NCBI GenBank assembly: GCA_028711655.1
Contig: JAQTRU010000006.1
Span: forward strand, 1 to 42,666
Source of the DNA: Patescibacteria group bacterium
GTDB lineage: Bacteria; Patescibacteriota; Patescibacteriia; Patescibacteriales; JAQTRU01
Reading direction: 5' to 3'
Length of the DNA stretch: 42,666 nt
This document shows, piece by piece, positions 3,339 through 30,065 of the stretch (within the stretch, counting starts at the first letter, position 1; every line of letters starts with the position of its first letter). The notes under the pieces were generated by a model that saw only the letters and a list, made by a program, of their open reading frames with translations, was not told the origin of the DNA and did no database searches. Both the position numbers and the translations under genes were made by a program.

Positions 3339-3400
3339 CGTGGAACACATAACGCATAACGTGTAACGCACAACACGTAACTTGAAACGCGCAACATACT
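3324..3400 (+). repeat. Heptamer tandem array (ACGCATA family), 11 units
   Basis: Eleven 7-nt units run in register: ACGCGTA, ACGCATA, ACGTGGA, ACACATA, ACGCATA, ACGTGTA, ACGCACA, ACACGTA, ACTTGAA, ACGCGCA, ACATACT. The array supplies the last residues and stop codon of the Hsp20 gene. It has the same length (77 nt) as the array at the end of hrcA. Confidence 0.9.
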
Positions 3401-3404
3401 CTTT

Positions 3405-3436
3405 TCTGTCATTCCCGCGAAAGCGGGAATCCAGGG
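3405..3436 (+). repeat. Left arm of a 32-bp perfect inverted repeat around the HEPN gene
   Basis: This arm contains the palindrome ATTCCCGCGAAAGCGGGAAT (3411-3430) flanked by TCTGTC and CCAGGG. The whole 32 nt is the exact reverse complement of 4220-4251. The palindrome resembles the widespread ATTCCC-N8-GGGAAT (dRS3-like) repeat type. Confidence 0.85.
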
Positions 3437-3516
3437 TTAAGTGATAGAAATATGGATATAGAGAAATCTTAACAGGCGGAGTGCTTGCAATTAGGCGAAG
3501 CTCCACCATAAATAAT

Positions 3517-4218
3517 ATGGAAGAAGAAAAATATAAAATTTTGAATTCTTATTATGCTAGATTAGTAGGAATTAGAGCTGGTTTTCCTAATAGTTCAATA
3601 AGACAAGAAATAGTAACGGATTATAACAATTTAGTAGATAATATTTCAAAAACTCTGGAGATTGAAATGAATGATTTTAAAATACCTGGATCCTCATTTT
3701 ATCCTCCGCAGAGTTATCAAAATTTTGGTTCATACGATAGAGGTGTAAGTAAATTTAAAATAGAACAGCTGCTTTCATATTTGGAAATAAGTTTTGGATT
3801 AGGCGAAAAAGTTCAGGAAATAGGAAGTTTAATTAATGCAATTAAAGATCAAGATTTAAGGGATAGGTGTTTTGATTTGTTAAGTGCATCATCAAATTTT
3901 GATAGAGTTATTAATCAAGCCACCTTAATTCTGGAAGATAGAATCAGAGTAAAATCCCAGGTAAAAGATAAATTAGAAGGCGTGAAGCTAGTAAATACAG
4001 TTTTGAACCCTAATTTATCAAAAACAATACTAAAAGTTAGTAGCGATGAGGATGGACATAGAGGCATTTGTGATATTTGTAGGGGGGTAATGTCGTCATT
4101 CAGAAATTCCACACACCACCATTTATCTGATAAATTTTCTAGAGAAGATGCACTTAAATTTTGTGGTTTTATTGATATTTTATTAAATATTATTGATAAT
4201 TCGACAATTAACAAATGA
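3517..4218 (+). CDS. TIGR02391-like HEPN-domain protein
   Basis: I place the start at the ATG at 3517 (MEEEKYKIL); the upstream in-frame GTG would add repeat-like sequence. The protein is about 233 residues. The C-terminal region has FRNSTHHH, which fits the RN-x3-H active-site signature of HEPN RNases and specifically the 'FRNxxxH' block of TIGR02391 proteins found in phage-defence and abortive-infection contexts. The N-terminal half is helical and not recognised. The gene is more AT-rich than its neighbours and sits inside a perfect 32-bp inverted repeat between hsp20 and dnaK, so I infer late insertion into the chaperone cluster. No partner nucleotidyltransferase is adjacent. The family call is by motif only. 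Confidence 0.6.
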   Translation: MEEEKYKILNSYYARLVGIRAGFPNSSIRQEIVTDYNNLVDNISKTLEIEMNDFKIPGSSFYPPQSYQNFGSYDRGVSKFKIEQLLSYLEISFGLGEKVQEIGSLINAIKDQDLRDRCFDLLSASSNFDRVINQATLILEDRIRVKSQVKDKLEGVKLVNTVLNPNLSKTILKVSSDEDGHRGICDICRGVMSSFRNSTHHHLSDKFSREDALKFCGFIDILLNIIDNSTINK

Positions 4219-4219
4219 C

Positions 4220-4251
4220 CCCTGGATTCCCGCTTTCGCGGGAATGACAGA
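4220..4251 (-). repeat. Right arm of the 32-bp perfect inverted repeat
   Basis: Exact reverse complement of 3405-3436. It starts two bases after the HEPN stop codon. Confidence 0.85.
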
Positions 4252-4291
4252 GGAGACAAATTAAAATAATTAATTCGTCATTTCTTTTTTT

Positions 4292-4369
4292 TGTCATTCC
4301 GGCCTCCGAGCCGGAATCTAGGGTTCAGCGAAACCATTTCTGGATTCCCGCTTTCGCGGGAATGACGGA
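4292..4369. repeat. Second inverted pair of GTCATTCC elements before dnaK
   Basis: A variant element (GTCATTCCGG...CCGGAATCTAGGG, 4292-4323) faces an inverted standard element (CTGGATTCCCGC...GCGGGAATGAC, 4340-4366). They share the GTCATTCC/GGAAT ends with the HEPN-flanking pair. The right element ends just before the upstream candidate ATG of dnaK. Confidence 0.75.
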
Positions 4370-4393
4370 GAGATGGCAATAAGAATAAAATTT

Positions 4394-6319
4394 ATGGGAA
4401 AAATATTAGGTATTGATTTAGGCACGACCAACAGTGCCATGGCGATTATTGAAGGCGGAAAGCCGAAAATTTTAGAAAATGCGGAAGGGGCCAGAACCAC
4501 GCCGTCTACTGTGGCGATTTCCAAAAACGGCGAACGCCTAGTCGGGCAAACCGCCAAACGACAGGCCGTTACCAATCCGGAAAACACGGTTTATGCGGTG
4601 AAGCGCTTAATCGGCCGGCATTTTAACGATGAAGAAGTGCAAAGGGATGTGAAAAATGCTTCTTACAAAATCGTTCAGGCCGGGGAAGGCGTAAAGGTGA
4701 AAATGGCGGATAAAGAATATACGCCGCAGGAAGTTTCAGCCATGATTTTATCTAAATTAAAAGCCGATGCCGAAGCGAAATTGGGAGAAAAAATTACCGA
4801 GGCGATTATTACCGTGCCGGCTTATTTTAACGACTCGCAAAGGCAGGCCACCAAAGATGCCGGGAAAATCGCAGGCTTTGACGTAAAACGCATTATTAAC
4901 GAACCGACCGCGGCCGCTCTGGCTTATGGCTTTGAGAAAAAAAAGGGTGAGCAAATCGCGGTTTACGATTTGGGCGGGGGCACTTTTGATATTTCCATTT
5001 TAGACGTTTCCGAAGATACGGTGGAAGTAAAATCCACCAACGGCGATACGCACTTGGGCGGAGAAGATTTTGACCAAAGGATTATTGAATGGATAATCAG
5101 CGAATTTAAAAAAGATCAGGGAATTGACTTGGGCAAAGACCCCCTGGCTTTGCAGAGAATCAAGGAGGCGGCGGAAAAAGCCAAGATTGAATTGTCCACG
5201 ACAAATGAAACCGAAATCAACCAGCCATTTATAACGACCGGTTCGGACGGACCGAAACATTTGGTCATGAAAATGAGTCGGGCAAAGCTGGAAGACTTGG
5301 TTGGAGATTTAGTGGAAAAAACTTTAGAGCCCTGTAAAGCGGCTTTGGCAGATGCTAAATTAGAAGTAAAGGATTTAGAAGAAGTAATTTTAGTCGGCGG
5401 CATGACCCGCATGCCCATGGTTCAGAAAAAAGTTAAGGAGTTTTTCAACAAAGAGCCGCATTTGGGCGTTAATCCTGATGAAGTGGTGGCGGCAGGGGCT
5501 GCGGTTCAGGCCGGAGTCTTGCAGGGCGACGTTAAAGATGTTTTACTTTTGGATGTAACCCCCCTTACTTTAGGCATTGAGACTTTGGGCGGAGTGGCCA
5601 CGCCTTTGATTGAAAAAAACACCACGATTCCGACTTCAAAGTCCCAGATTTTTTCCACGGCGGCTGACGGACAGACCAGCGTGGAAATCCATGTCCTGCA
5701 AGGCGAACGGCCGATGGCGCAGGACAATAAAACTTTGGGCCGGTTTATTTTAGATGGCCTTCCGTCCGCGCCCCGGGGCGTGCCGCAGGTTGAAGTTTCC
5801 TTTGATATTGACGCCAATGGAATTTTGAACGTTAAAGCCACGGACAAGGCCACGGGCAAAAACCAACACATCACCATTACCGCTTCGTCAGGGCTTTCCA
5901 AGGAAGAAGTGGAGAAAATGAAAAAAGAAGCGGAACTCCATGCCGAAGAAGATAAAAAGAAAAAAGAGCAGATTGACATAAAAAATCAGGCGGACGCGGT
6001 TGTATTTTCTACGGAAAAAATGCTTAAAGAATCCGGCGACCCCAGCCATGAAGGCGGGGCAGGTAAAATAAAACCGGAAGATAAAAAAGAGCTGGAAGAA
6101 AAATTAGAAGCTTTGAAAAAAGTTAAAGATTCTGATAATTATGAAGAGATGAAGAAAAAGATGGAAGAAATGAATCAGGTGGCGCAAAAAATCGGCGCGG
6201 CCATGTATCAACAGCAAGCGCAAGCCGGACAAGGCGAGCAAAAAGGCGAGAAGGCTGGAGAAAGTAAAGAAGAAAAGAAGGGTGATGAACCGGTGGAAGG
6301 AGAGGTAGTGGATAAATAA
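4394..6319 (+). CDS. dnaK: Chaperone protein DnaK (Hsp70)
   Basis: ATP-dependent chaperone of about 641 residues, normal length. Visible motifs: phosphate-1 GIDLGTTNS at the very N-terminus, [26 protein letters not shown], phosphate-2 [12 protein letters not shown], adenosine loop GGMTRMPMV, and linker/substrate-domain start [19 protein letters not shown]. The lid is Lys/Glu-rich and ends in a [13 protein letters not shown]-type low-complexity tail and EVVDK. I chose the second Met (4394) because DnaK proteins start MGKIIGIDLG; an in-frame ATG at 4373 would add seven residues but overlaps the palindromic repeat and has a GGAG only two bases away. Partners in this window are DnaJ, Hsp20 and the Nudix-GrpE fusion. 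Confidence 0.98.
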
Positions 6320-20404: not shown

Positions 20405-20968
20405 TTTAAGTTGTTGATATTTTTAAGATAATAAAAAGATAATATAAAATTTTAAACAATTTAAACAGCAATCCTTAAGAAGAAACCCCTGTTGGGAAAA
20501 ATCCCCCCTACCCCCCTTTGACGAAAGGGGGCAAAAATCCCCTGGCCGGCCTCGCAAGCGAGGGCGTTGCGGGCAGGCCTCACCCTCCGCCTCGGCGAGC
20601 CTTCGGCGAGACGGGACCTTTACCGTAAGGAGGTTCTTGTGGATAACTTTTATCTTGTACTTTTTAAATGTTATATGTTTTACTGCGAGGCCATTGCGAG
20701 TCAATATTTTTAGTCAGGAGAAAGATATTAAAGAAAAAGCGCGAGGTTTATTTTTGCCTAAAATAAGCCGATTTTTTCCAAAAAAAATTTGAATTTTTAC
20801 TATTTCCTTGGGCAGCAGCCGTTTTAGTAAAAATATTTGGAAGAAATACCGGATTTATGTTTTAAAATGTTGATAATTTGTGGTATAATTGTTAATAAGA
20901 TTAGATGATAATAGTTTGATAAGATAAGAAAATAGCCGTTATTTTTTAAACAGGTAAAAGCAATCCCC
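20405..20968. other. Repeat-rich spacer before the giant gene
   Basis: No protein gene is supported. It holds a CCCCCTTTGACGAAAGGGGG palindrome (about 20510-20531, the family found three times inside the next gene), concatenated GC-rich palindromes (about 20540-20625), and a two-part hairpin: ATTTTTACTA (20793-20802) with TAGTAAAAAT (20825-20834), extended by TTCCAAA (20776-20782) with TTTGGAA (20836-20842). A TG-extended TATAAT at 20884-20889 with a poor -35 is the likely promoter of the giant gene. Confidence 0.5.
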
Positions 20969-23900
20969 ATGCTTAATCAAAATAAAGAGGAATCCAAAAA
21001 ATTAATTCCTCTGCGCCGTTTGGCTAAAGAGGCGCCGTACAAAGTTAACTACCTTTCTCTTTTGGTACAAAGAGGAAAATTAAAGGCGGAAAAAATCGGC
21101 CGGAATTATTTTACGACGCGGGAATGGTTTGAACAGTATTTGGAAATGCACGCCCGCGACGAGAAGGTGGAAAGAGCGGAAGGGGCGCAGGCAGAGAAAT
21201 CCCCCCAACCCCCTTTAACGAAAGGGGGAGAAATCCCCCCAACCCCCTTTAACGAAAGGGGGAAAAATCCCCCCAACCCCCTTTGCCGAAAGGGGGTAAG
21301 AAAGAGAAGGGAGGAGTTGGACTTTTCAGTTTTGGAAAAAATTTCAGAAAAGGCGGGCGAGGAAGACGAATTTTTAAAAAGCTGGAGAGAAAAAATCGGA
21401 GAAGAAGAAGGTAAAAAAATAGAAAAGAAAGCGGGCGATAATTTTTTTAACCGTCTTTTCGGTTTAAGGAATTTTCCCGATTCCGCGGATAAATCAGAAA
21501 AATTGGTTTTTGGTTTTTCGCGGGCTAAGTTGGCAGCCATGCTTTTAGTTTTGCTGATGGCTGCTTTTTCTTTTTCCTATTTTGTTCCGGGCGCGGCCGC
21601 TTCTTTCACGAGCATGATAGACAAAACTTTGATCGCGCCGATTGAGGCGGCGCGAGCGGTCGCGGAATCAGCGGGCGAAGCGGCGAAAGCAGCGAGCCGG
21701 TTGGCGGCCGAGAGTTCGGTTTTTGAAAAGGCGAGCCAATACTCAAACAAGGCAAAACAAGAAATGAAAAAAGTTGCCGGGCCGGTCAAGGAAATGGCGG
21801 GCCGGCAAATAGCCGTCTTGGCCGATAAGATTGATGTTGTCCGGGAGGAGATTTACGAAAGAAAAATCCAGCCGGCTTTTTCGGGCGCTTATGAAGCCGG
21901 GCGCGGCCGCGTAGCCGGCATAAGCGAGTCCGCGGGGACTAATTTGATAATGGGAAAATTTTTAGATTCAATGAAAAAAGCGGGGCGGTCAGTATCTGAT
22001 TTTTACGCCAAAGTTGTGGATTTTATGACTCCTGATTTTCTGAATAAGTATGCCGGCCAAGAAGAAGAGAAAAAATTAGCTGAAACTTCGGGTTGGCCGA
22101 TTATTCCACTTCTGCCGGAAGAGGCGGTCGGAACGTTGGCGGAAGAAGAGAAACTTTCGGATGACTTATCGGATTTACCGCAGGGAGATTCGGGGCAGGC
22201 GGAAAAAATTGAAAAAAAAGCGGTTGCCCCAAAAACCGTTGTTGCTCCTCCCGTTTATATTACCGAAGAGGCTTCGGTTTCAGAGCCGCCGGCTCCGGCA
22301 ATTGTCCAGACTCAACCCCAGATAACGATTTTGCAGGCCTCGGCCGACGGGACGACTGATGTCGGAGGCGATTTAACAGTAAAGGGCGCGGCTGTTTTTA
22401 ACGAGAGCCTTACGGTTGACGATAATCTTACGGTCAAAGGCGTAATCTACGGAGGCAGTCCGGTAAAAATTGCCGGCGGATTAAAGGTTGGGGGCGATGC
22501 CGAATTTTCCGACAGCGTATCCATAACTTCCGCAATAAGCGCAGGCAGTTTAGAGGCCTCTTCGGCCGCTATCAGCGGCAACTTAACCGTCGGCAGTATG
22601 CTTTCCGCCAATTTTTTAAATGTGAGCGGCACTTTTTCCGCCCAGTATGCCCATTTTACCAGTTTAAGCGCCAGCAGTTTTCTTTCTGGCAACAGCGTTT
22701 CCGCGGGCGAAGGCGGCCTGTCCAGCTCCGGCGGCTTAACTGTGAGCAAAAACAGCTCGGGCGATATTGTTAATGTCGTTGACGGTTCGGCTGACGTCTT
22801 TACCATTAAAGACGGCGGCAATATCGGCATCGGCACGAATTCCCCGAGCCACAAATTAGATATCGACGGCAACTTGGGCCTGTCTGCCGGAGGGTATATT
22901 AATTGGGGGTCAACTGACGGAACTGGCGGCTATGGCCTGCGCGACAATTCCGGAACCCTGCAGTTTAAAAATTCCGGCGGAGCCTGGGGAGATATTCCTT
23001 CTGTAATTTGGAGCGTTTCCGGCGCGGACGCTTATTATACCGCCGGCAATGTCGGCATCGGCACCTCCACTCCTTATTCCAAACTCTCGGTCTGGGGCTT
23101 TGGGACAGGAACCAATCGCCTGTTTGAACTGACCAATTCCGCTTCTACCACTTTAGCCAGCTTTCTTGAAAATGGCACTGGCTATTTCTTGGGTAATATA
23201 GGTATCGGTACCACCTCACCCTACGCTAAATTATCCGTAGCCGGAAACATCGCGGTGGACGGAACAATTACGGCTTCTACTTTTACCGCCACGTCTTCAA
23301 TCTCGGCTCCGTATTTTACCGCGACCGACGCTTCGGCCACTTCCACTTTCGCCGGAGGACTGACGGTAGACACCAGCGGTTTGGTTTATGACTGGCAAAC
23401 AGGCAACGTCGGCATCGGCACAACTACTCCCGCTTATCTCTTAGACGTTGACGGAGATTTCAGAGTGGGGGTAGAGAGTAAAGCTAATACTTTTTACGTT
23501 GATACGGCTAATGAAAGAGTGGGGATTGGGACAGCTTCACCAATAGCTAAATTAACTGTAAAATCAGCAGGGTATATAAATACTGAAGGAATACGCCTTG
23601 AAGATGCGAGTGGCAATGGAATTGTTAATTTATATGAGAATACTGTAGGTTCCGGGTATATATCACTACGAAAATACGCCGTTGGCAATACAATCATTTT
23701 AAATGCAGCAGGAAATAGTTGGATTGATAATGGGGCAAATTTTGGCATAGGCACTTCTTCGCCTCAAGCGGTTTTAGAAGTTAACGGAGACTTTAGGGTA
23801 GGAGAAGGAGCTAATTTTAACGGACTTTTTGTGGATGCAACGCAGGGGAAAGTCGGTATCGGGACGGATAGTCCAGGGGCGAAGTTAGATATAATGACGA

Positions 23901-26900
23901 CCAGTGGAAATATCCAAATGCGACTTGGTAGTAGTGGGTCTGCAACAACAAATTTTGATATTGGAAGAAATGCGAATGGCTACTTAGAATTTACTGGTAA
24001 TCAAATTGGATATGCCAGTTATCGCTTTAATGCAAATGCGGCAAATCAAGGTTCGTTTGGTGCATATGACTTTCGGGATCAAGAGACAAGTAGGCTCTTT
24101 ATATCAACCGCTGGCAACATCGGCATCGGGACGACTTCGCCAGCTTATCTCTTAGATGTTAACGGTGATATGAGGGTGGGAATCGCGGGCAAAGCTAATA
24201 CTTTTTATGTTGATACGGCTAATGAGAGGGTGGGGATTGGGACTGATAGTCCAGGAGCTCTCCTTGATGTAAATGGTATTGCCAAAGTAACTAAATTATC
24301 AATAAATACATCTCAAAATCAAAATTATCTTATAGTCTCTGGAAATGCAAGCATAGGATATAATTATAGAGATGTTACAGCTCCACAAAATGGTTTAATA
24401 GTTGAAGGCAACGTCGGGATTGGAACAACAACGCCGGCTTATCTTTTAGACGTTGACGGGGATTTTAGAGTAGGGGTAGAGAGTAAAGATAATACTTTTT
24501 ACGTTGATACGGCTAATGAAAGAGTGGGTATCGGGACGGCAAGTGCGGGGGCGAAGTTGGGCATAGTAGTTTCTGGAACAGATGCTGTTCACGACAATAC
24601 AGATTTATTAACCACAGCAGATACTTCTGATGCTTTATATATTCAAAATGAGAATGCTGCTGCAAATTCAGTTGGATTGATTTTAAGAAATCGTGTAGCT
24701 GGTGCATCAACCTGGGGAATTTTTAATGAATGGCAAGATACGGATTATGGAGATTTGGTTTTTAGAGGACGCAGTGGCGGAGCAACCTCAAAAGAAGTAA
24801 TGAGGCTAGAGGCAAACTCCGGCAACGTCGGCATCGGGACGACTTCGCCGATGTCTAAACTCTCGGTGACATCCAACTCCGGGTCGCAACTTACTTTAGC
24901 TTATGATGATACCAATTACGCGAATTTTACGGTCGGGTCTGACAGCCAATTAACAATCGCTCCGGCCAATAACGCGACTACGACGATTGGGGTCGGAGAC
25001 GAAGCTTTACGAGTTGATTCTTCGGGAAATATCGGCGTAGGCACAACCACGCCTAAGTCAAAATTGTCAATTTTAGGCGGAGTGGATGTTAATCGCGGAG
25101 TAATTGTGCCGACCGGCAGTATTGATATCAGCGGTTCTTATTTAACAAACGGCGCTGATTATGCGGAATATTATTATTCTATAGATAATAATTTAGAGCC
25201 CGGAGAAGCGGTCTGCGTGGATATAGAAAGGGAAAACGCGGTTAAAAGATGCGAACGGGCGGCAGATGGCAATTTAATGGGTATAGTTTCCACCAAACCG
25301 GCGATTGTGGGTAATGGCGGACCGGGCAAAAACGGGATGGAAAAAAGTAAAGATAATCATTATGCCATTATTGGCATGCTGGGCCAGGTTCCGGCTCGGG
25401 TCACTACGGCGAACGGGCCAATCCGGCCGGGCGATTCTCTAACTTCTGCTTCTCGGCCGGGCTACGTTATGCGGGCAAGCGCCGGTGATCCGACGGTCGG
25501 GGTTGCATTAGAGGGCTTAGACACGAATGAAACGAACGACACGAATATAACGAATGAGATTGGGACGGGAGTGATTAATGTCCTGATTTCAAGAAGAAAT
25601 AAGAGTCTGACCGTGGAAGAAATAGAGGAGAAAGTAACTGAACGAATCGCTAATATGGAAATAGAGGATGAAGTTAATATATTAATTGCTAATGCCATAA
25701 ATAATTTAAATTTAGACGATGAGATCACAGAAGTCCTTGATCCGAAATTATTATTACTGGAAACCAGATTGACTGTTAAGAGCGATGATTTAGGGAGCAG
25801 AATTGTGAATATGGAAAAAACCGTGAGCGATATAATCAGTATGGTGGCGAATTTAGACGCGGTAATTAGGGCGCAGGGCTTAGGGCTTAGGGAAGAGATG
25901 AGCGTAATAACCGATAACCAAGAAACAATAGCCAAACAAATTTCAATAATCAATAGCCAATTAAACACGAATTTGACGAACCTGACGAATTTAACGAATG
26001 CATTTGCCGTGGACGAATATGGCAATATTAAATTAGGCAAGACCTCACCCCAACCCTCTCCTTCGCAAGGAGAGGGGGGGGTAGCCGTGGTGGAGATTGT
26101 TACCGCCACTACCACGGCCCAGACCGCGTTTGTGATTAATCAGTCCGGCTCCGGAGATGTGGCGGATTTCCGCGCTAATGACGTGAGTATTTTAAATATT
26201 GGCGTGAGCGGCAAAGTTTCCATTGTCGGCACTTTGGCGGTGGACGGCCGGATCATGGCTTGCTCCGGGTCATCTTGCGGTACGGCTTTAGATTTGGCGG
26301 TTGATGAAACCATGGGCGATATTGGGGTAGAAGGCAAAGTCGTGGCCGGAGCGTTTGAGGGTTATTGCGAAGAGGGTTTTGTCTGGGCGCCGGGCTCGGC
26401 GAAGTATGGGACAATGCCGGGATTCTGCGTGGCGGCTCGCATCGCTCGCCTGGCAGACACGAATGAAACGAATTTAACGAATATAACGAATGTGAATGGC
26501 CAGGTATGGAATAATATTTCGCAGGGTGAAGCAGGCCTTGCCTGCCAGAGTTTGGGCGCGGGCTACCATTTAATTTCCGAAAACGAGTGGCTTACCATGG
26601 CGGAGAATATAATAAACACAAAAGGGACGAAATTTAACGAAAAAAACGAATTAAGTGAGGCGGACGGCGTAAATGAATATGTGTTGTCTAATGATAATGT
26701 TGTATATATGAATATAGGAATCGGAGAATGGACCAATCAGACAATTACGAAAAAGGGAGCGCCGGAATTAAACACGAACGGAACGAACCTGAACGAATGG
26801 TACGAATACTTTGATGTTATAGATTTCAAAGGGTTGAATATCGCGCCGCCTTATTATTTGAATGACGCAGATAATAATATCGGGAAGATTAAGATTGGCT

Positions 26901-27016
26901 CAAATATTGATGTGTTGCGGGGTTTTGTCCGGGGAGCAGGCGGAATTTACAGCTTGGATTTGTCCAACGCGCCAACCGCGGTGAGCGAGAGTATTGGCTT
27001 TCGTTGCGCGCGCTAA
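20969..27016 (+). CDS. Giant membrane-anchored surface protein with cytoplasmic HTH and GIGT-repeat fibre
   Basis: 2015 residues. Domain order: an excisionase/MerR-like HTH (about 10-60: LIPLRRLAKEAP, YLSLLVQRGKLKAEKIGRNY, FTTREWFEQYL); a P-rich insert from three 34-nt palindromes (about 76-110); one TM helix (about 187-208, LAAMLLVLLMAAFSFSYF); an Ala-rich helical stalk (210-375); LTVKG-type beta repeats (about 460-610); thirteen units of the form GNVGIGTTSPxxKLDVxG (about 618-1372); a GADYAEYY block (about 1395); a coiled coil (about 1545-1665); and a C-terminal Cys-containing domain resembling formylglycine-enzyme/SUMF1-type folds (about 1795-2015: MPGFCV, GYHLISENEWLTMAENI, SIGFRCAR). Topology implies an N-terminal DNA-binding domain inside and a long fibre outside. 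Adhesion or sensing is inferred. GIGT repeats are typical of phage tail-fibre and CPR surface proteins. There is no Shine-Dalgarno at the ATG. Confidence 0.85.
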   Translation: MLNQNKEESKKLIPLRRLAKEAPYKVNYLSLLVQRGKLKAEKIGRNYFTTREWFEQYLEMHARDEKVERAEGAQAEKSPQPPLTKGGEIPPTPFNERGKNPPNPLCRKGVRKRREELDFSVLEKISEKAGEEDEFLKSWREKIGEEEGKKIEKKAGDNFFNRLFGLRNFPDSADKSEKLVFGFSRAKLAAMLLVLLMAAFSFSYFVPGAAASFTSMIDKTLIAPIEAARAVAESAGEAAKAASRLAAESSVFEKASQYSNKAKQEMKKVAGPVKEMAGRQIAVLADKIDVVREEIYERKIQPAFSGAYEAGRGRVAGISESAGTNLIMGKFLDSMKKAGRSVSDFYAKVVDFMTPDFLNKYAGQEEEKKLAETSGWPIIPLLPEEAVGTLAEEEKLSDDLSDLPQGDSGQAEKIEKKAVAPKTVVAPPVYITEEASVSEPPAPAIVQTQPQITILQASADGTTDVGGDLTVKGAAVFNESLTVDDNLTVKGVIYGGSPVKIAGGLKVGGDAEFSDSVSITSAISAGSLEASSAAISGNLTVGSMLSANFLNVSGTFSAQYAHFTSLSASSFLSGNSVSAGEGGLSSSGGLTVSKNSSGDIVNVVDGSADVFTIKDGGNIGIGTNSPSHKLDIDGNLGLSAGGYINWGSTDGTGGYGLRDNSGTLQFKNSGGAWGDIPSVIWSVSGADAYYTAGNVGIGTSTPYSKLSVWGFGTGTNRLFELTNSASTTLASFLENGTGYFLGNIGIGTTSPYAKLSVAGNIAVDGTITASTFTATSSISAPYFTATDASATSTFAGGLTVDTSGLVYDWQTGNVGIGTTTPAYLLDVDGDFRVGVESKANTFYVDTANERVGIGTASPIAKLTVKSAGYINTEGIRLEDASGNGIVNLYENTVGSGYISLRKYAVGNTIILNAAGNSWIDNGANFGIGTSSPQAVLEVNGDFRVGEGANFNGLFVDATQGKVGIGTDSPGAKLDIMTTSGNIQMRLGSSGSATTNFDIGRNANGYLEFTGNQIGYASYRFNANAANQGSFGAYDFRDQETSRLFISTAGNIGIGTTSPAYLLDVNGDMRVGIAGKANTFYVDTANERVGIGTDSPGALLDVNGIAKVTKLSINTSQNQNYLIVSGNASIGYNYRDVTAPQNGLIVEGNVGIGTTTPAYLLDVDGDFRVGVESKDNTFYVDTANERVGIGTASAGAKLGIVVSGTDAVHDNTDLLTTADTSDALYIQNENAAANSVGLILRNRVAGASTWGIFNEWQDTDYGDLVFRGRSGGATSKEVMRLEANSGNVGIGTTSPMSKLSVTSNSGSQLTLAYDDTNYANFTVGSDSQLTIAPANNATTTIGVGDEALRVDSSGNIGVGTTTPKSKLSILGGVDVNRGVIVPTGSIDISGSYLTNGADYAEYYYSIDNNLEPGEAVCVDIERENAVKRCERAADGNLMGIVSTKPAIVGNGGPGKNGMEKSKDNHYAIIGMLGQVPARVTTANGPIRPGDSLTSASRPGYVMRASAGDPTVGVALEGLDTNETNDTNITNEIGTGVINVLISRRNKSLTVEEIEEKVTERIANMEIEDEVNILIANAINNLNLDDEITEVLDPKLLLLETRLTVKSDDLGSRIVNMEKTVSDIISMVANLDAVIRAQGLGLREEMSVITDNQETIAKQISIINSQLNTNLTNLTNLTNAFAVDEYGNIKLGKTSPQPSPSQGEGGVAVVEIVTATTTAQTAFVINQSGSGDVADFRANDVSILNIGVSGKVSIVGTLAVDGRIMACSGSSCGTALDLAVDETMGDIGVEGKVVAGAFEGYCEEGFVWAPGSAKYGTMPGFCVAARIARLADTNETNLTNITNVNGQVWNNISQGEAGLACQSLGAGYHLISENEWLTMAENIINTKGTKFNEKNELSEADGVNEYVLSNDNVVYMNIGIGEWTNQTITKKGAPELNTNGTNLNEWYEYFDVIDFKGLNIAPPYYLNDADNNIGKIKIGSNIDVLRGFVRGAGGIYSLDLSNAPTAVSESIGFRCAR
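21196..21297. repeat. Three tandem 34-nt palindromes inside the giant gene
   Basis: Three copies of AATCCCCCCAACCCCCTTT followed by AACGAAAGGGGG, with a 34-nt period (AAAT at 21197, 21231 and 21265). Each copy is read in a different frame (SPQPPLTKGG, IPPTPFNERG, NPPNPLCRKG). Three copies total 102 nt, which keeps the gene in frame. Confidence 0.9.
23428..24540 (+). repeat. Three near-identical ~105-nt intragenic repeats
   Basis: Copies at about 23428-23532, 24133-24241 and 24434-24537 encode PAYLLDVDGDFRVGV..., KANTFYVDTANERVGIGT. They are almost identical at DNA level, and the segments between them are more AT-rich and unrelated. They are obvious substrates for recombination and length change. 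Confidence 0.8.
25523..26810 (+). repeat. Nonamer arrays (ACGAATNNN) in coding sequence
   Basis: Four clusters of 9-nt units occur in the giant gene: 25523-25558, 25967-26002, 26459-26494 and about 26774-26805. They encode Thr-Asn-x runs (TNETNDTNITN, TNLTNLTNLTN, TNETNLTNITN, TNGTNLNEW). The 9-nt period keeps the frame. A CCCTCTCCTT palindrome (26041-26080, encoding SPQPSPSQGEGG) lies between two of them. Confidence 0.85.
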
Positions 27017-27221: not shown

Positions 27222-27617
27222 ATGAACCCCGTTAGAAATTCAGCCAAAAATTATTATAAGCAAAGAAGTTATAATATTTCTAACCTCGTTAGAAATAAAT
27301 TTCTAAGCGGGGCTAACGGGGCGAGGGAGGAGAGAAATTATTATGTCTACATTTTAGCCAGCAAAAGAAATGGTACATTATATATCGGAGTAACCAACAA
27401 TTTATTAAATAGGAGTTTCCAGCACAGAATTAAAGAAAATAAAAATAGTTTTACCGCTAAGTACAATATAAACAGATTAGTCCACTGTGAAGTTTTTTCT
27501 GGCATTGGTGCCGCTATCGCCAGAGAAAAACAACTGAAAAAATGGAATCGAAAGTGGAAAATAGAATTAATTGAAAAAGAAAATCCTGCTTGGCGGGATT
27601 TATTTGATGATTTGTAG
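27222..27617 (+). CDS. GIY-YIG domain (UvrC/URI-type) putative endonuclease
   Basis: The nuclease core is residues about 40-125: YYVYILASKRNGTLYIGVTNN (the GIY...YIG pair as YVY...YIG), then R at the QHR helix (NRSFQHRIKENKN), FTAKYNINRLVHCEVF and AIAREKQLKKWNRKWKIELI, the usual layout of the small single-domain URI family. The first 36 residues (NPVRNSAKNYY..., NLVRNKFLSG) are encoded by CCCCGTTAGAAAT-type repeats and may be untranslated, but no internal ATG in frame precedes the core, so I keep the ATG at 27222. The gene is bracketed by inverted GTCAT...CCAGGG elements. Isolated GIY-YIG proteins of this size are often mobile; the substrate is unknown. Confidence 0.85.
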   Translation: MNPVRNSAKNYYKQRSYNISNLVRNKFLSGANGAREERNYYVYILASKRNGTLYIGVTNNLLNRSFQHRIKENKNSFTAKYNINRLVHCEVFSGIGAAIAREKQLKKWNRKWKIELIEKENPAWRDLFDDL

Positions 27618-27629
27618 TTCATGCGGCTC

Positions 27630-27712
27630 ATCCCTGGATTCCCTCCCCGTTTTCACGGGGACTAAAGGCCGCGGGAATGACAAGGGGAAGAAGGCGGGAA
27701 TGACAAGGGGTC
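27630..27712 (-). repeat. GTCATTCC-type palindrome right of the GIY-YIG gene
   Basis: CCTGGATTCCCTCCCCGTTT...GCGGGAATGACAAGG, inverted relative to 27161-27197, followed by a partial duplication (GGCGGGAATGACAAGG at about 27693-27708). Confidence 0.65.
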
Positions 27713-27762
27713 CCAGTATAGTTAGAGTTAAAGTAGTTTCAATTTATATTTCTATTAAGGTT

Positions 27763-28731
27763 ATGATTAGTGTTTTAGGAAAAATTAAGGATAGGGGCAA
27801 GCTCTTTTTTAAAAAAATTAAAAAGGCGGGAAAAGCGTTAAAGAAAAAAGCGGAAAAATTATCCCGGAAGCGGATTATATTTATTATATTTTTTATTTTC
27901 TTTTTGCTGGCAGCCGGGGATTGGCTTACAAAAGGCGGGGCCGACACATTAAAAAAAGTAAAATTTACCGGAAACGATAAATTTTCCACCCGAACCTTTA
28001 TTATTCATAAAGACCAAAAAAATCTTCAACCGGCCAGTTTGGAAGAATTAATTTTGGGGCCGCTATTCAGAGAGGGAGAGAGGCAAGCGACGATCGGGGA
28101 GAGATTGGGAATAAGAGGGAAAAGCCATTCGGTTTCTCCGGAAGAAGATTTGCAGTCGGTTATAAACGAGGCCGAAGATTATGACGCCATTTATCTAAGC
28201 AGGGGGGTTTATTCAGTTAACCTATTTATCAATAAAAAATTACGTCTGGTCGGACAGGGCGAGGCAACAATTTTAAAAGCGGCCAAGGAAAAAAGCGCGG
28301 TTATCAAGGTAAGGGACGCGGGATTAGGGCTGGAAAACATTGTGCTGGCCGATTCTTACGCCGGGATTGACGCCGCCAGCGCGGAAATTATTGTTTCCGA
28401 TACCAGATTCAGAAATATTTCCGCCACCGCCATGTATGCCAAAGACAGCCAATTGGATTTTAAAAATAATGTTATTGACACTTGCGGCGAAGCCATAAAA
28501 GTTTTGCGCTCATCCGGCTCAATCAGAAATTCAGTCATAATTTCCAGCGCCAAGTCCGGAGTGAGACTTATAAAAAGCGATTTTATCATTGAATATAACA
28601 AGATTACTGATAACAAGAGCTACGGGATATATGTTGACGAGGATTCGGACGCAAAAATTCAGCATAATTATATAAAAGATAATGAGGGATATAATGTGAG
28701 GGTTCAGAAGACGAGAGATATTTATAAATAA
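27763..28731 (+). CDS. Membrane-anchored right-handed beta-helix protein
   Basis: I place the start at ATG 27763 (MISVLGKIKDRGKLFFKK), preceded by TAAGG; the longer frame back to 27571 overlaps the GIY-YIG gene and runs through a palindrome. The protein is about 322 residues. A Lys-rich cytoplasmic N-terminus leads into one TM helix (KRIIFIIFFIFFLLAAGDWL). The outside part is a parallel beta-helix (NosD/pectate-lyase-like): DLQSVINEAEDYDAIYLSRG, then repeated turns such as RLVGQGEATILKA, GLENIVLADS, ISATAMYAKDSQLDFKNNVI, SGVRLIKSDFIIEYNKI, SYGIYVDEDSDAKIQHNYI. Such folds bind or cleave polysaccharides; no catalytic residues are identifiable. It follows the giant fibre gene and may belong to the same surface layer. 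Confidence 0.8.
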   Translation: MISVLGKIKDRGKLFFKKIKKAGKALKKKAEKLSRKRIIFIIFFIFFLLAAGDWLTKGGADTLKKVKFTGNDKFSTRTFIIHKDQKNLQPASLEELILGPLFREGERQATIGERLGIRGKSHSVSPEEDLQSVINEAEDYDAIYLSRGVYSVNLFINKKLRLVGQGEATILKAAKEKSAVIKVRDAGLGLENIVLADSYAGIDAASAEIIVSDTRFRNISATAMYAKDSQLDFKNNVIDTCGEAIKVLRSSGSIRNSVIISSAKSGVRLIKSDFIIEYNKITDNKSYGIYVDEDSDAKIQHNYIKDNEGYNVRVQKTRDIYK

Positions 28732-29219: not shown

Positions 29220-30065
29220 ATGTTTGAAAAATTAAAAGAAAATGTAATAAAATATACCGTGGTTATTTTGGTTATAGTATTGTCTACCAGCCAACCGGTT
29301 TGGGCCGCGCCCGGTAATTCTTCCGATTATTCCTGGGCGGAGAAATTCGGTTATATCCAGTGGGCGGACGGCGCTAATTTTGAAGGCGCTTTGGTGGCTG
29401 ATGATGGTCTTACCGGTTATCTCTGGAGCGAGAAAACCGGTTACATCAGTTTGAGCTGTTCCAACACTTCTTCCTGCGGCACGGTTGATTACGGGATTTC
29501 CAATGACGGAGACGGAAATTTGACCGGTTATGCTTGGAGCGAGAAATTGGGCTGGATAAGTTTTGACGATTCAAGCGTAAACAATTATTACCAAGTAACA
29601 ATTGATGAGAATGGTAATTTTTCCGGTTATGCCTGGAGCGAAAAGGCCGGTTATATAAATATGGATGATGCCGGTGATTTATATAAAGTAACCACGACTT
29701 GGCTGCCGATCGGGCCGCCAACCGTAGTGACGGGCGGATTTTCGGAAATGGCGACTTCCTCCATTACGGTCATTATCGGCATTTCCGACACAGGCGGAGT
29801 CAACCCGACGGTCAGAGGAGTTAAATACGGTTTGACCGAGGCTGATACCTGGGATGCGCATGAAACCGGCGATTTTTCCACCGGCACCACGACCATAGAA
29901 ATCACGGGTTTAACCAAGGGGACGGTTTATTATGTCCGGGCTTATGCCACCAATACCGAGGGCACGGGCTACGGCGCTTATATTCCGACCATAACCCATG
30001 TTGAATCTAGTCCGGTTATATTAAAGGAAGAGGTGATATTAAAGGGGCAGGTGATATTTAAGTAA
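29220..30065 (+). CDS. Secreted protein with GYAWSEKxGWI repeats and an Fn3-like domain
   Basis: 281 residues. The signal peptide is at residues about 1-30 (VVILVIVLSTSQPVWAAPG, likely cleaved after WAA). Four repeats of the type GYAWSEKLGWISFDD follow (SWAEKFGYIQW, GYLWSEKTGYISL, GYAWSEKLGWISF, GYAWSEKAGYINM), then a fibronectin-III-like region (PTVVTGGFSEMATSSITV, GLTKGTVYYVRAYATNTEG). The C-terminus is odd: VILKEEVILKGQVIFK, with a short repeated ILK/IFK word and no sorting signal. W-S-E-K repeats are common in CPR secreted proteins; function is unknown. It completes a surface-protein neighbourhood with the two previous anchored proteins. Confidence 0.75.
   Translation: MFEKLKENVIKYTVVILVIVLSTSQPVWAAPGNSSDYSWAEKFGYIQWADGANFEGALVADDGLTGYLWSEKTGYISLSCSNTSSCGTVDYGISNDGDGNLTGYAWSEKLGWISFDDSSVNNYYQVTIDENGNFSGYAWSEKAGYINMDDAGDLYKVTTTWLPIGPPTVVTGGFSEMATSSITVIIGISDTGGVNPTVRGVKYGLTEADTWDAHETGDFSTGTTTIEITGLTKGTVYYVRAYATNTEGTGYGAYIPTITHVESSPVILKEEVILKGQVIFK

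Follow-up and report, generated by a model that had tools for sequence, protein, structure and literature searches.

A giant fibre protein of Patescibacteria headed by a winged helix-turn-helix domain, with candidate operators at its own promoter

Why should a giant fibre protein begin with a domain of the DNA-binding type? The question is raised by an open reading frame (ORF) in a stretch of 42,666 nucleotides from a Patescibacteria group bacterium (assembly GCA_028711655.1, contig JAQTRU010000006.1, positions 1 to 42,666), here called the window. The frame opens with ATG, is free of stop codons throughout and encodes 2015 amino acids. From the N-terminus these form a helix-turn-helix (HTH) domain, a charged linker, a membrane segment, a stalk of helices, 13 GIGT repeats, a probably helical stretch and a six-cysteine C-terminal region. 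A first-pass annotation had read this order in a single chain, and the reading frame, the HTH matches, hydropathy and the repeat count agree with it. We propose, with moderate confidence and from sequence evidence, that this is a surface fibre of the mosaic adhesive trimer (MAT) type with a single membrane span, and that its cytoplasmic HTH binds repeated sites at the fibre promoter and autoregulates the fibre gene. The features on which this proposal is built are the following.

20969-27016, + strand: full ORF of the HTH-membrane-fibre protein, 2015 amino acids
20996-21166, + strand: winged HTH of the HTH_17/excisionase family, residues 10-66 (family matches, structure model, orthologue conservation)
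21530-21586, + strand: membrane segment, predicted N-in, residues 188-206 (hydropathy, positive-inside count)
20871-20876, + strand: TGATAA box just 5' of the -10 element, in a block conserved in the orthologues of genomes G001 and G002
20884-20889, + strand: TATAAT, putative -10 hexamer of the promoter, its geometry conserved in nine genes from nine genomes
20906-20922, + strand: candidate tandem operator TGATAA-N5-TGATAA with an 11-bp period (boxes 20906-20911 and 20917-20922), unique in the genome

A search of the whole protein against Pfam and NCBIfam returned zero matches; the OmpR-type Trans_reg_C winged HTH had no Pfam match in it, and its HTH is HTH_17-like instead. Against PHROGs the protein matched phage tail-fibre families and one excisionase family, residues 14-82 matching phrog_1840 (E 2e-4), while the match to TIGR01764 was weak (E 0.025). 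Among 23 homologous aligned HTHs, 12 match HTH_17 (PF12728, best 1.6e-7) and 14 match the excise family TIGR01764 (best 5e-9); the HTH_17 score of an in-genome paralogue, 36.9 bits, lies above the curated cut-off of 27 bits. AlphaFold2 (AF2) modelled the window domain as a winged HTH (helices 15-21, 26-35 and 51-66, with two strands) at a moderate mean predicted local distance difference test (pLDDT) of 72. Its fold neighbours include the excisionases 8c3t and 4j2n (Xis), with probabilities of at least 0.8, and further RdfS, SoxR, GlnR and RacA (5i44), all with weak E-values. The HTH is also the best-conserved segment among the orthologues, with 93% and 88% identity compared with 33-47% of aligned positions in linker and stalk, and the basic wing region is conserved. 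The domain is an HTH_17/excisionase-family winged HTH for which DNA binding is predicted, and the excisionase/MerR-like HTH named in the first-pass annotation, for which a structure prediction had been suggested as a check, is borne out by model and family matches alike.

The single strong hydrophobic stretch of the protein covers residues 188-206 (mean Kyte-Doolittle hydropathy 2.31). It is preceded by four lysine or arginine residues and followed by one, and over 41 family members 144 such residues are counted on the inner and 67 on the outer side. This excess on the HTH side, in the window protein as in the family, argues for an HTH inside and a fibre outside the cell, the topology that had been assumed before.

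If the HTH binds DNA, where are its sites? In the clade of the window protein, a TATAAT hexamer precedes a series of two to four TGATAA boxes, most of them spaced at an 11-bp period. The tandem TGATAA-N5-TGATAA occurs once in this genome of 1.096 Mb, at the fibre promoter (20906-20922), and the strict pattern TATAAT-N12..17-TGATAA-N5-TGATAA was found nine times in 98 genomes, always directly upstream of an HTH-fibre gene, with none for the reversed control; such strict patterns miss degenerate sites. Upstream of 42 genes, tandem TGATAA was observed 12 times against 0.015 expected. The first-pass annotation had proposed to test binding elsewhere, at a hairpin at 20776-20842. This hairpin folds modestly better than shuffled sequences (z -2.9) but is not conserved in the orthologues of G001 and G002 and was rejected as operator; the candidates are instead the TGATAA boxes at 20871-20876, 20906-20911 and 20917-20922. 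What had been suggested as a coupling to transcription is retained as a likely role at the fibre's own promoter, where candidate boxes around TATAAT are conserved in orthologues, and is given up as far as the hairpin is concerned.

Most other clades carry a different element, the palindrome TATCSGATA, which was observed 44 times upstream of the same 42 genes against 0.175 expected. In one family (f3) the promoter lies between sites that are 80-82 bp apart, and upstream of it sites cluster within as much as 1.5 kb; the share of a genome's copies that lies at f3 fibre loci ranges from 8/19 up to 5/5. Fibre loci hold all five sites of genome G004, 9 of the 13 in G048 and four of the five in the single-contig genome G225, and arrays of about 8-11 exact or near-exact sites extend over 1-1.5 kb around the gene start in G035 and G048. 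The palindrome was defined on one family and then tested on 44 separately sampled upstream regions from the class and the phylum, where it ranked top of all 9-mers (26 genes versus 0.24 expected; 15 of 21 genes from the class, 11 of 23 from the phylum). As a control for specificity, 18 Fic genes with a similar, C-terminal HTH had no site; a later Fic locus of the phylum (L167) had a single one. With their C-terminal HTH, a soluble protein and no sites in those 18, the Fic-HTH proteins were rejected as family members.

None of the 42 genes has both the palindrome and the tandem TGATAA, and the split follows the type of HTH: genes whose HTH is of the S[QA][ED]Y[LI]SL type have TATCSGATA, and those with an HTH of the LVQR type have TGATAA. 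The same co-variation is seen within the genome of the window. The paralogue (contig C10, 3082 amino acids) carries its HTH in two tandem copies, has the membrane-proximal region in common with the window protein and ends in a related tip; the two proteins share 78% of the neck, 64% of the tip and only 40% of the HTH. Its promoter carries a third element, CCAATCAATT repeats, likewise unique in the genome, so that the two paralogues share a tip and differ in HTH and in genome-unique operators, which speaks for the proposed autoregulation. Tandem duplication of the HTH in one chain also occurs in L136, L138, L140, L144 and L171 besides the paralogue itself (L011, near-identical copies). This genome also encodes further GIGT proteins, at L012 669-1934 and at L013 1-648 and 585-1673, which showed no such HTH.

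How widespread is the arrangement? Two copies of the HTH-membrane-giant fibre order are found in this genome, and it is widespread in class and phylum. A search with the N-terminal part of the protein recovered it in other genera and families of the order, and searches with an HTH model recovered it throughout the class (20 loci read); in the rest of the phylum the HTH heads long frames, of which the first ~600 residues were read. Across order, class and phylum these frames measure about 800-5900 amino acids, lengths that are minima in many cases because the fibre genes stop at contig ends. Named relatives come from Candidatus Falkowbacteria and other Parcubacteria-group genomes. The search across the candidate phyla radiation that had been recommended for this domain order thus found it in many genomes, far above chance.

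How could such a protein act? The cytoplasmic winged HTH would bind the repeated sites at the promoter of its own gene sequence-specifically. Chains already present would expose their HTHs inside the cell and, acting while membrane-bound, would turn the fibre gene down or set its level, so that fibre production would be matched to the amount already in the membrane. The HTH is probably a repressor of the fibre gene, repression being the likelier sign because boxes are placed around the -10 element and closely downstream of it. Should the fibre form trimers, as its Bdellovibrio relatives do, three HTHs would stand side by side at the membrane, which would fit arrays of two to four sites and might provide avidity. 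More tentatively, and with less confidence than for the locus itself, we suggest that fibres throughout the phylum may serve as their own transcription factors, with private co-evolving operators that insulate paralogues and that link fibre number or host contact to expression.

Several points weigh against autoregulation by the fibre's own HTH. DNA binding and autoregulation are predicted from sequence. The loci that yielded the TGATAA pattern are those in which it was later counted, so that the independent evidence consists of its absence elsewhere and of the class and phylum test of TATCSGATA, and the loci are related by descent, so that site counts are not independent events. The exact TATCSGATA is missing in about a third of the class and half of the phylum genes. 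Another protein could bind the sites, as small soluble HTHs of the same family carry the same site, and a cut by signal peptidase between HTH and fibre, at a putative site PGAAA-SF, is a serious possibility.

The last point leads to the alternative that survives best, which as a whole we consider rather unlikely. According to it, the hydrophobic segment belongs to a signal peptide whose cytoplasmic N-region is very long. Signal peptidase I would cleave behind PGAAA, and the remaining HTH stub would either autoregulate or be degraded; the HTH would then report export events instead of an attached fibre. The membrane segment closes with a signal-peptidase-like A-x-A motif, at which the peptidase could separate the mature fibre from the HTH. 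At this outer end, [AV]xA is present in 25 of 41 members against 13.4 expected by shuffling, and the segments of the window protein, the paralogue and the G001 and G002 orthologues end in PGAAA, PGAGA, PNASA and PGVSA, each followed by SF. On the other side, a hydrophobic stretch of 18-19 residues is long for a signal peptide, and the motif is missing in L056, L057, L130, L131 and L147. The earlier worry that an internal start might remove the HTH from the expressed protein is live in this other form, as a putative cut.

In a contact sensor of the ToxR/CadC type, the tip would bind a host or surface, and a signal passing along the stalk and across the membrane to the HTH would alter transcription. 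In favour of it, the C-terminal tip and neck are conserved, and the topology is that of transmembrane one-component regulators (PMC10269533). Such a role is, however, unsupported because the candidate sites are confined to the fibre gene and the regulon thus appears to be one gene; signalling along some 1,800 fibre residues has no support here either, and we regard this explanation as improbable.

Alternatively, the site array and the membrane-bound HTH might hold the fibre gene at the membrane in a transertion-like or centromere-like manner, with regulation as a secondary effect. The arrays of about 8-11 sites in G035 and G048 would suit such tethering, and the MerR-like HTH of RacA is among the weak fold neighbours. 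Most genes, however, have one to four sites, placed at the promoter, and the site cluster of G225 is located about 203 kb from dnaA (3.6-3.9 kb versus 207 kb). The GC skew of the window shows no switch and no origin. We therefore rejected anchoring of the origin, and with it the origin-near form of the nucleoid anchoring put forward in the first-pass annotation; tethering of the gene's own locus is possible, if doubtful.

It is equally doubtful that a separate soluble HTH of the same family occupies the sites and that the fibre HTH has another role. Small soluble members in other classes (L160, L172 and L173) do have TATCGGATA or a variant upstream, at their own promoters. Against their involvement, the operator type tracks the HTH of the fibre gene itself, and the two paralogues differ in both HTH and operator. 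That these soluble members carry the site at their own promoters suggests that self-regulation may be ancestral and that the HTH was fused to fibres at a later stage. In a second group of small soluble HTHs (L159, L162 and L166), variants of the palindrome ATCGGCTAGCCGAT stand directly after TATAAT, a hint of divergent HTH/operator pairs.

RodZ likewise combines a cytoplasmic HTH with one membrane span and an outer domain, but the HTH_17/excisionase family, the conserved basic wing region and the co-variation with operators make it very improbable that the window HTH is a RodZ-like protein-protein interaction module and not a DNA-binding domain.

What, then, lies beyond the membrane, and what surrounds the gene? 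The remaining features of protein and upstream region are these.

21200-21298, + strand: in-frame copies of a dispersed C-rich repeat (PQPPLTKGG...) in the cytoplasmic linker, residues 78-110 (read from the sequence)
21587-21604, + strand: PGAAAS, residues 207-212, possible signal peptidase I site AAA-S ([AV]xA enrichment)
21608-22168, + strand: helical stalk, residues 214-400, with a conserved GRVAGISE motif (family comparison)
22769-25138, + strand: fibre region with 13 GIGT repeats, residues 601-1390 (repeat count, PDB homology)
25139-25543, + strand: domain resembling Peptidase_G2, residues 1391-1525 (homologue L061 against PF11962, below cut-off, E 2.3e-4)
25544-26038, + strand: probable helical or coiled-coil segment, residues 1526-1690 (read from the sequence)
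26039-27013, + strand: neck and Cys-containing C-terminal tip, residues 1691-2015 (common to the paralogue)
20963-20968, + strand: ATCCCC immediately 5' of the ATG, a start context (TCCCC|ATG) that recurs across loci
20638-20646, + strand: TGTGGATAA (DnaA-box consensus TTATCCACA on the other strand), 331 bp 5' of the ATG, recurrent upstream of HTH-family genes

The GIGT repeats, exactly 13 in number, are homologous to the Bdellovibrio MAT fibre Bd2133 in the PDB (phmmer E 3.8e-6). By its sequence the fibre is related to these mosaic adhesive trimers, and trimerisation is predicted from that homology. A Pfam search with the window copy of the Peptidase_G2-resembling region gave zero matches. 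The fibre regions of L053, L055, L057 and L058 contain intein- or Hint-like insertions (CVTGDTKL ... HNFVGNGIIAHNT). The six cysteines of the C-terminal region are located at positions 1765, 1770, 1800, 1820, 1859 and 2013. This region had been called SUMF1-like; it has no Pfam match and no credible match in the PDB, and the AF2 model of the tip (pLDDT 36.6) is unusable, so that neither a SUMF1 nor a C-type-lectin identity is supported.

Diversification of the tip by a diversity-generating retroelement (DGR) was considered and gained no support: reverse transcriptase genes were found, but the only pair of template and variable repeats recovered, in L017, serves another protein. In the part of the genome scanned, where both reverse transcriptase contigs end near the gene, no DGR template matched the fibre tip. 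The DGR itself (L017, contig C56 of G000; 1576-1700, about 2520-2620 and 3380-4630) comprises a reverse transcriptase, a template repeat and a variable repeat; the latter shows A-specific changes and forms the end of another exported protein. A small GIY-YIG-like gene adjoins the fibre gene at 27222-27617, and a close copy adjoins the DGR (L017, 2824-3201), which suggests a mobile unit. Downstream in the window follow a membrane-anchored, beta-helix-like repeat protein (27571-28731) and an exported WSEK-repeat protein (29220-30065), both kept beside the fibre in G002 (L051).

The dispersed repeats (translated PQPPLTKGG or SPQPSPSQGEGG) are inserted in frame into the coding sequence at 21200-21298 and about 26160, and a similar C-rich repeat lies upstream of the gene at about 20500. 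In many family genes across the class, TCCCC abuts the start codon in place of a Shine-Dalgarno sequence. Of 65 HTH-family genes, 27 have the DnaA-box consensus TGTGGATAA about 100-600 bp upstream (same orientation 27, reversed 2), a frequency far above that at the other loci compared; a link to DnaA or replication is possible.

Attachment to hosts and its control are largely unknown in uncultivated Patescibacteria. Should the proposed autoregulation hold, one protein would be both a surface adhesin and a DNA-binding protein, tethered to the membrane and provided with an operator of its own, a very compact one-component system that suits reduced genomes. The locus offers a concrete DNA target (20871-20922), and HTH_17-membrane segment-GIGT together with TATCSGATA or TGATAA arrays provides a signature for candidate host-contact fibres in thousands of genomes. 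In the open-access literature searched, part of it judged by title, we found no paper on HTH-membrane-fibre proteins in Patescibacteria and none that treats TATCGGATA as an operator in bacteria. Neither the combination nor so large a fibre nor private operators are described in the papers found, in agreement with the first-pass annotation, of whose interpretation the inward DNA-binding-type domain, the outward fibre and a likely role at the own promoter are kept, and the hairpin operator and origin-near anchoring are not.

Single elements of the arrangement are nevertheless familiar. RacA of Bacillus, a MerR-like chromosome anchor, is a soluble protein without a surface role that binds symmetric sites close to the origin. 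The window protein would share with it a MerR-like HTH that links DNA to the cell periphery (5i44 is a weak fold neighbour), but it is a predicted surface fibre, and the family's site cluster in G225 lacks proximity to the origin. ToxR and CadC also join a cytoplasmic DNA-binding-type domain, one membrane span and an outer domain in a single chain; a survey of transmembrane regulators reports HTH domains as common and, in the text consulted, describes no fibre fusions (PMC10269533). The outer part is here a giant adhesive-type fibre of about 800-5000 residues, the HTH is of another type, and autoregulation apparently concerns a single gene. BldC, a soluble regulator of 68 residues that controls many genes, forms head-to-tail oligomers on direct repeats of 9 bp (PMC5859096). 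An HTH_17-like winged HTH and direct repeats about one helical turn apart and variable in number (the 11-bp TGATAA period) recur in the window clade, whereas the HTH heads a membrane fibre with sites at its own gene, and most relatives have the palindrome TATCSGATA. The fibre itself is closest to the MATs of Bdellovibrio bacteriovorus, surface fibres for prey recognition (PDB 8ond, 8ol4) with an N-terminal domain that does not vary and presumably binds an element of the surface, and variable C-terminal tips in S74-type and non-S74 forms (PMC10769870). The GIGT repeats are homologous, and the paralogue has a sub-threshold Peptidase_S74 match; in place of the invariant Bdellovibrio-type domain, however, the window protein begins with a predicted intracellular HTH, a linker and a membrane segment, accompanied by candidate DNA sites of its own.

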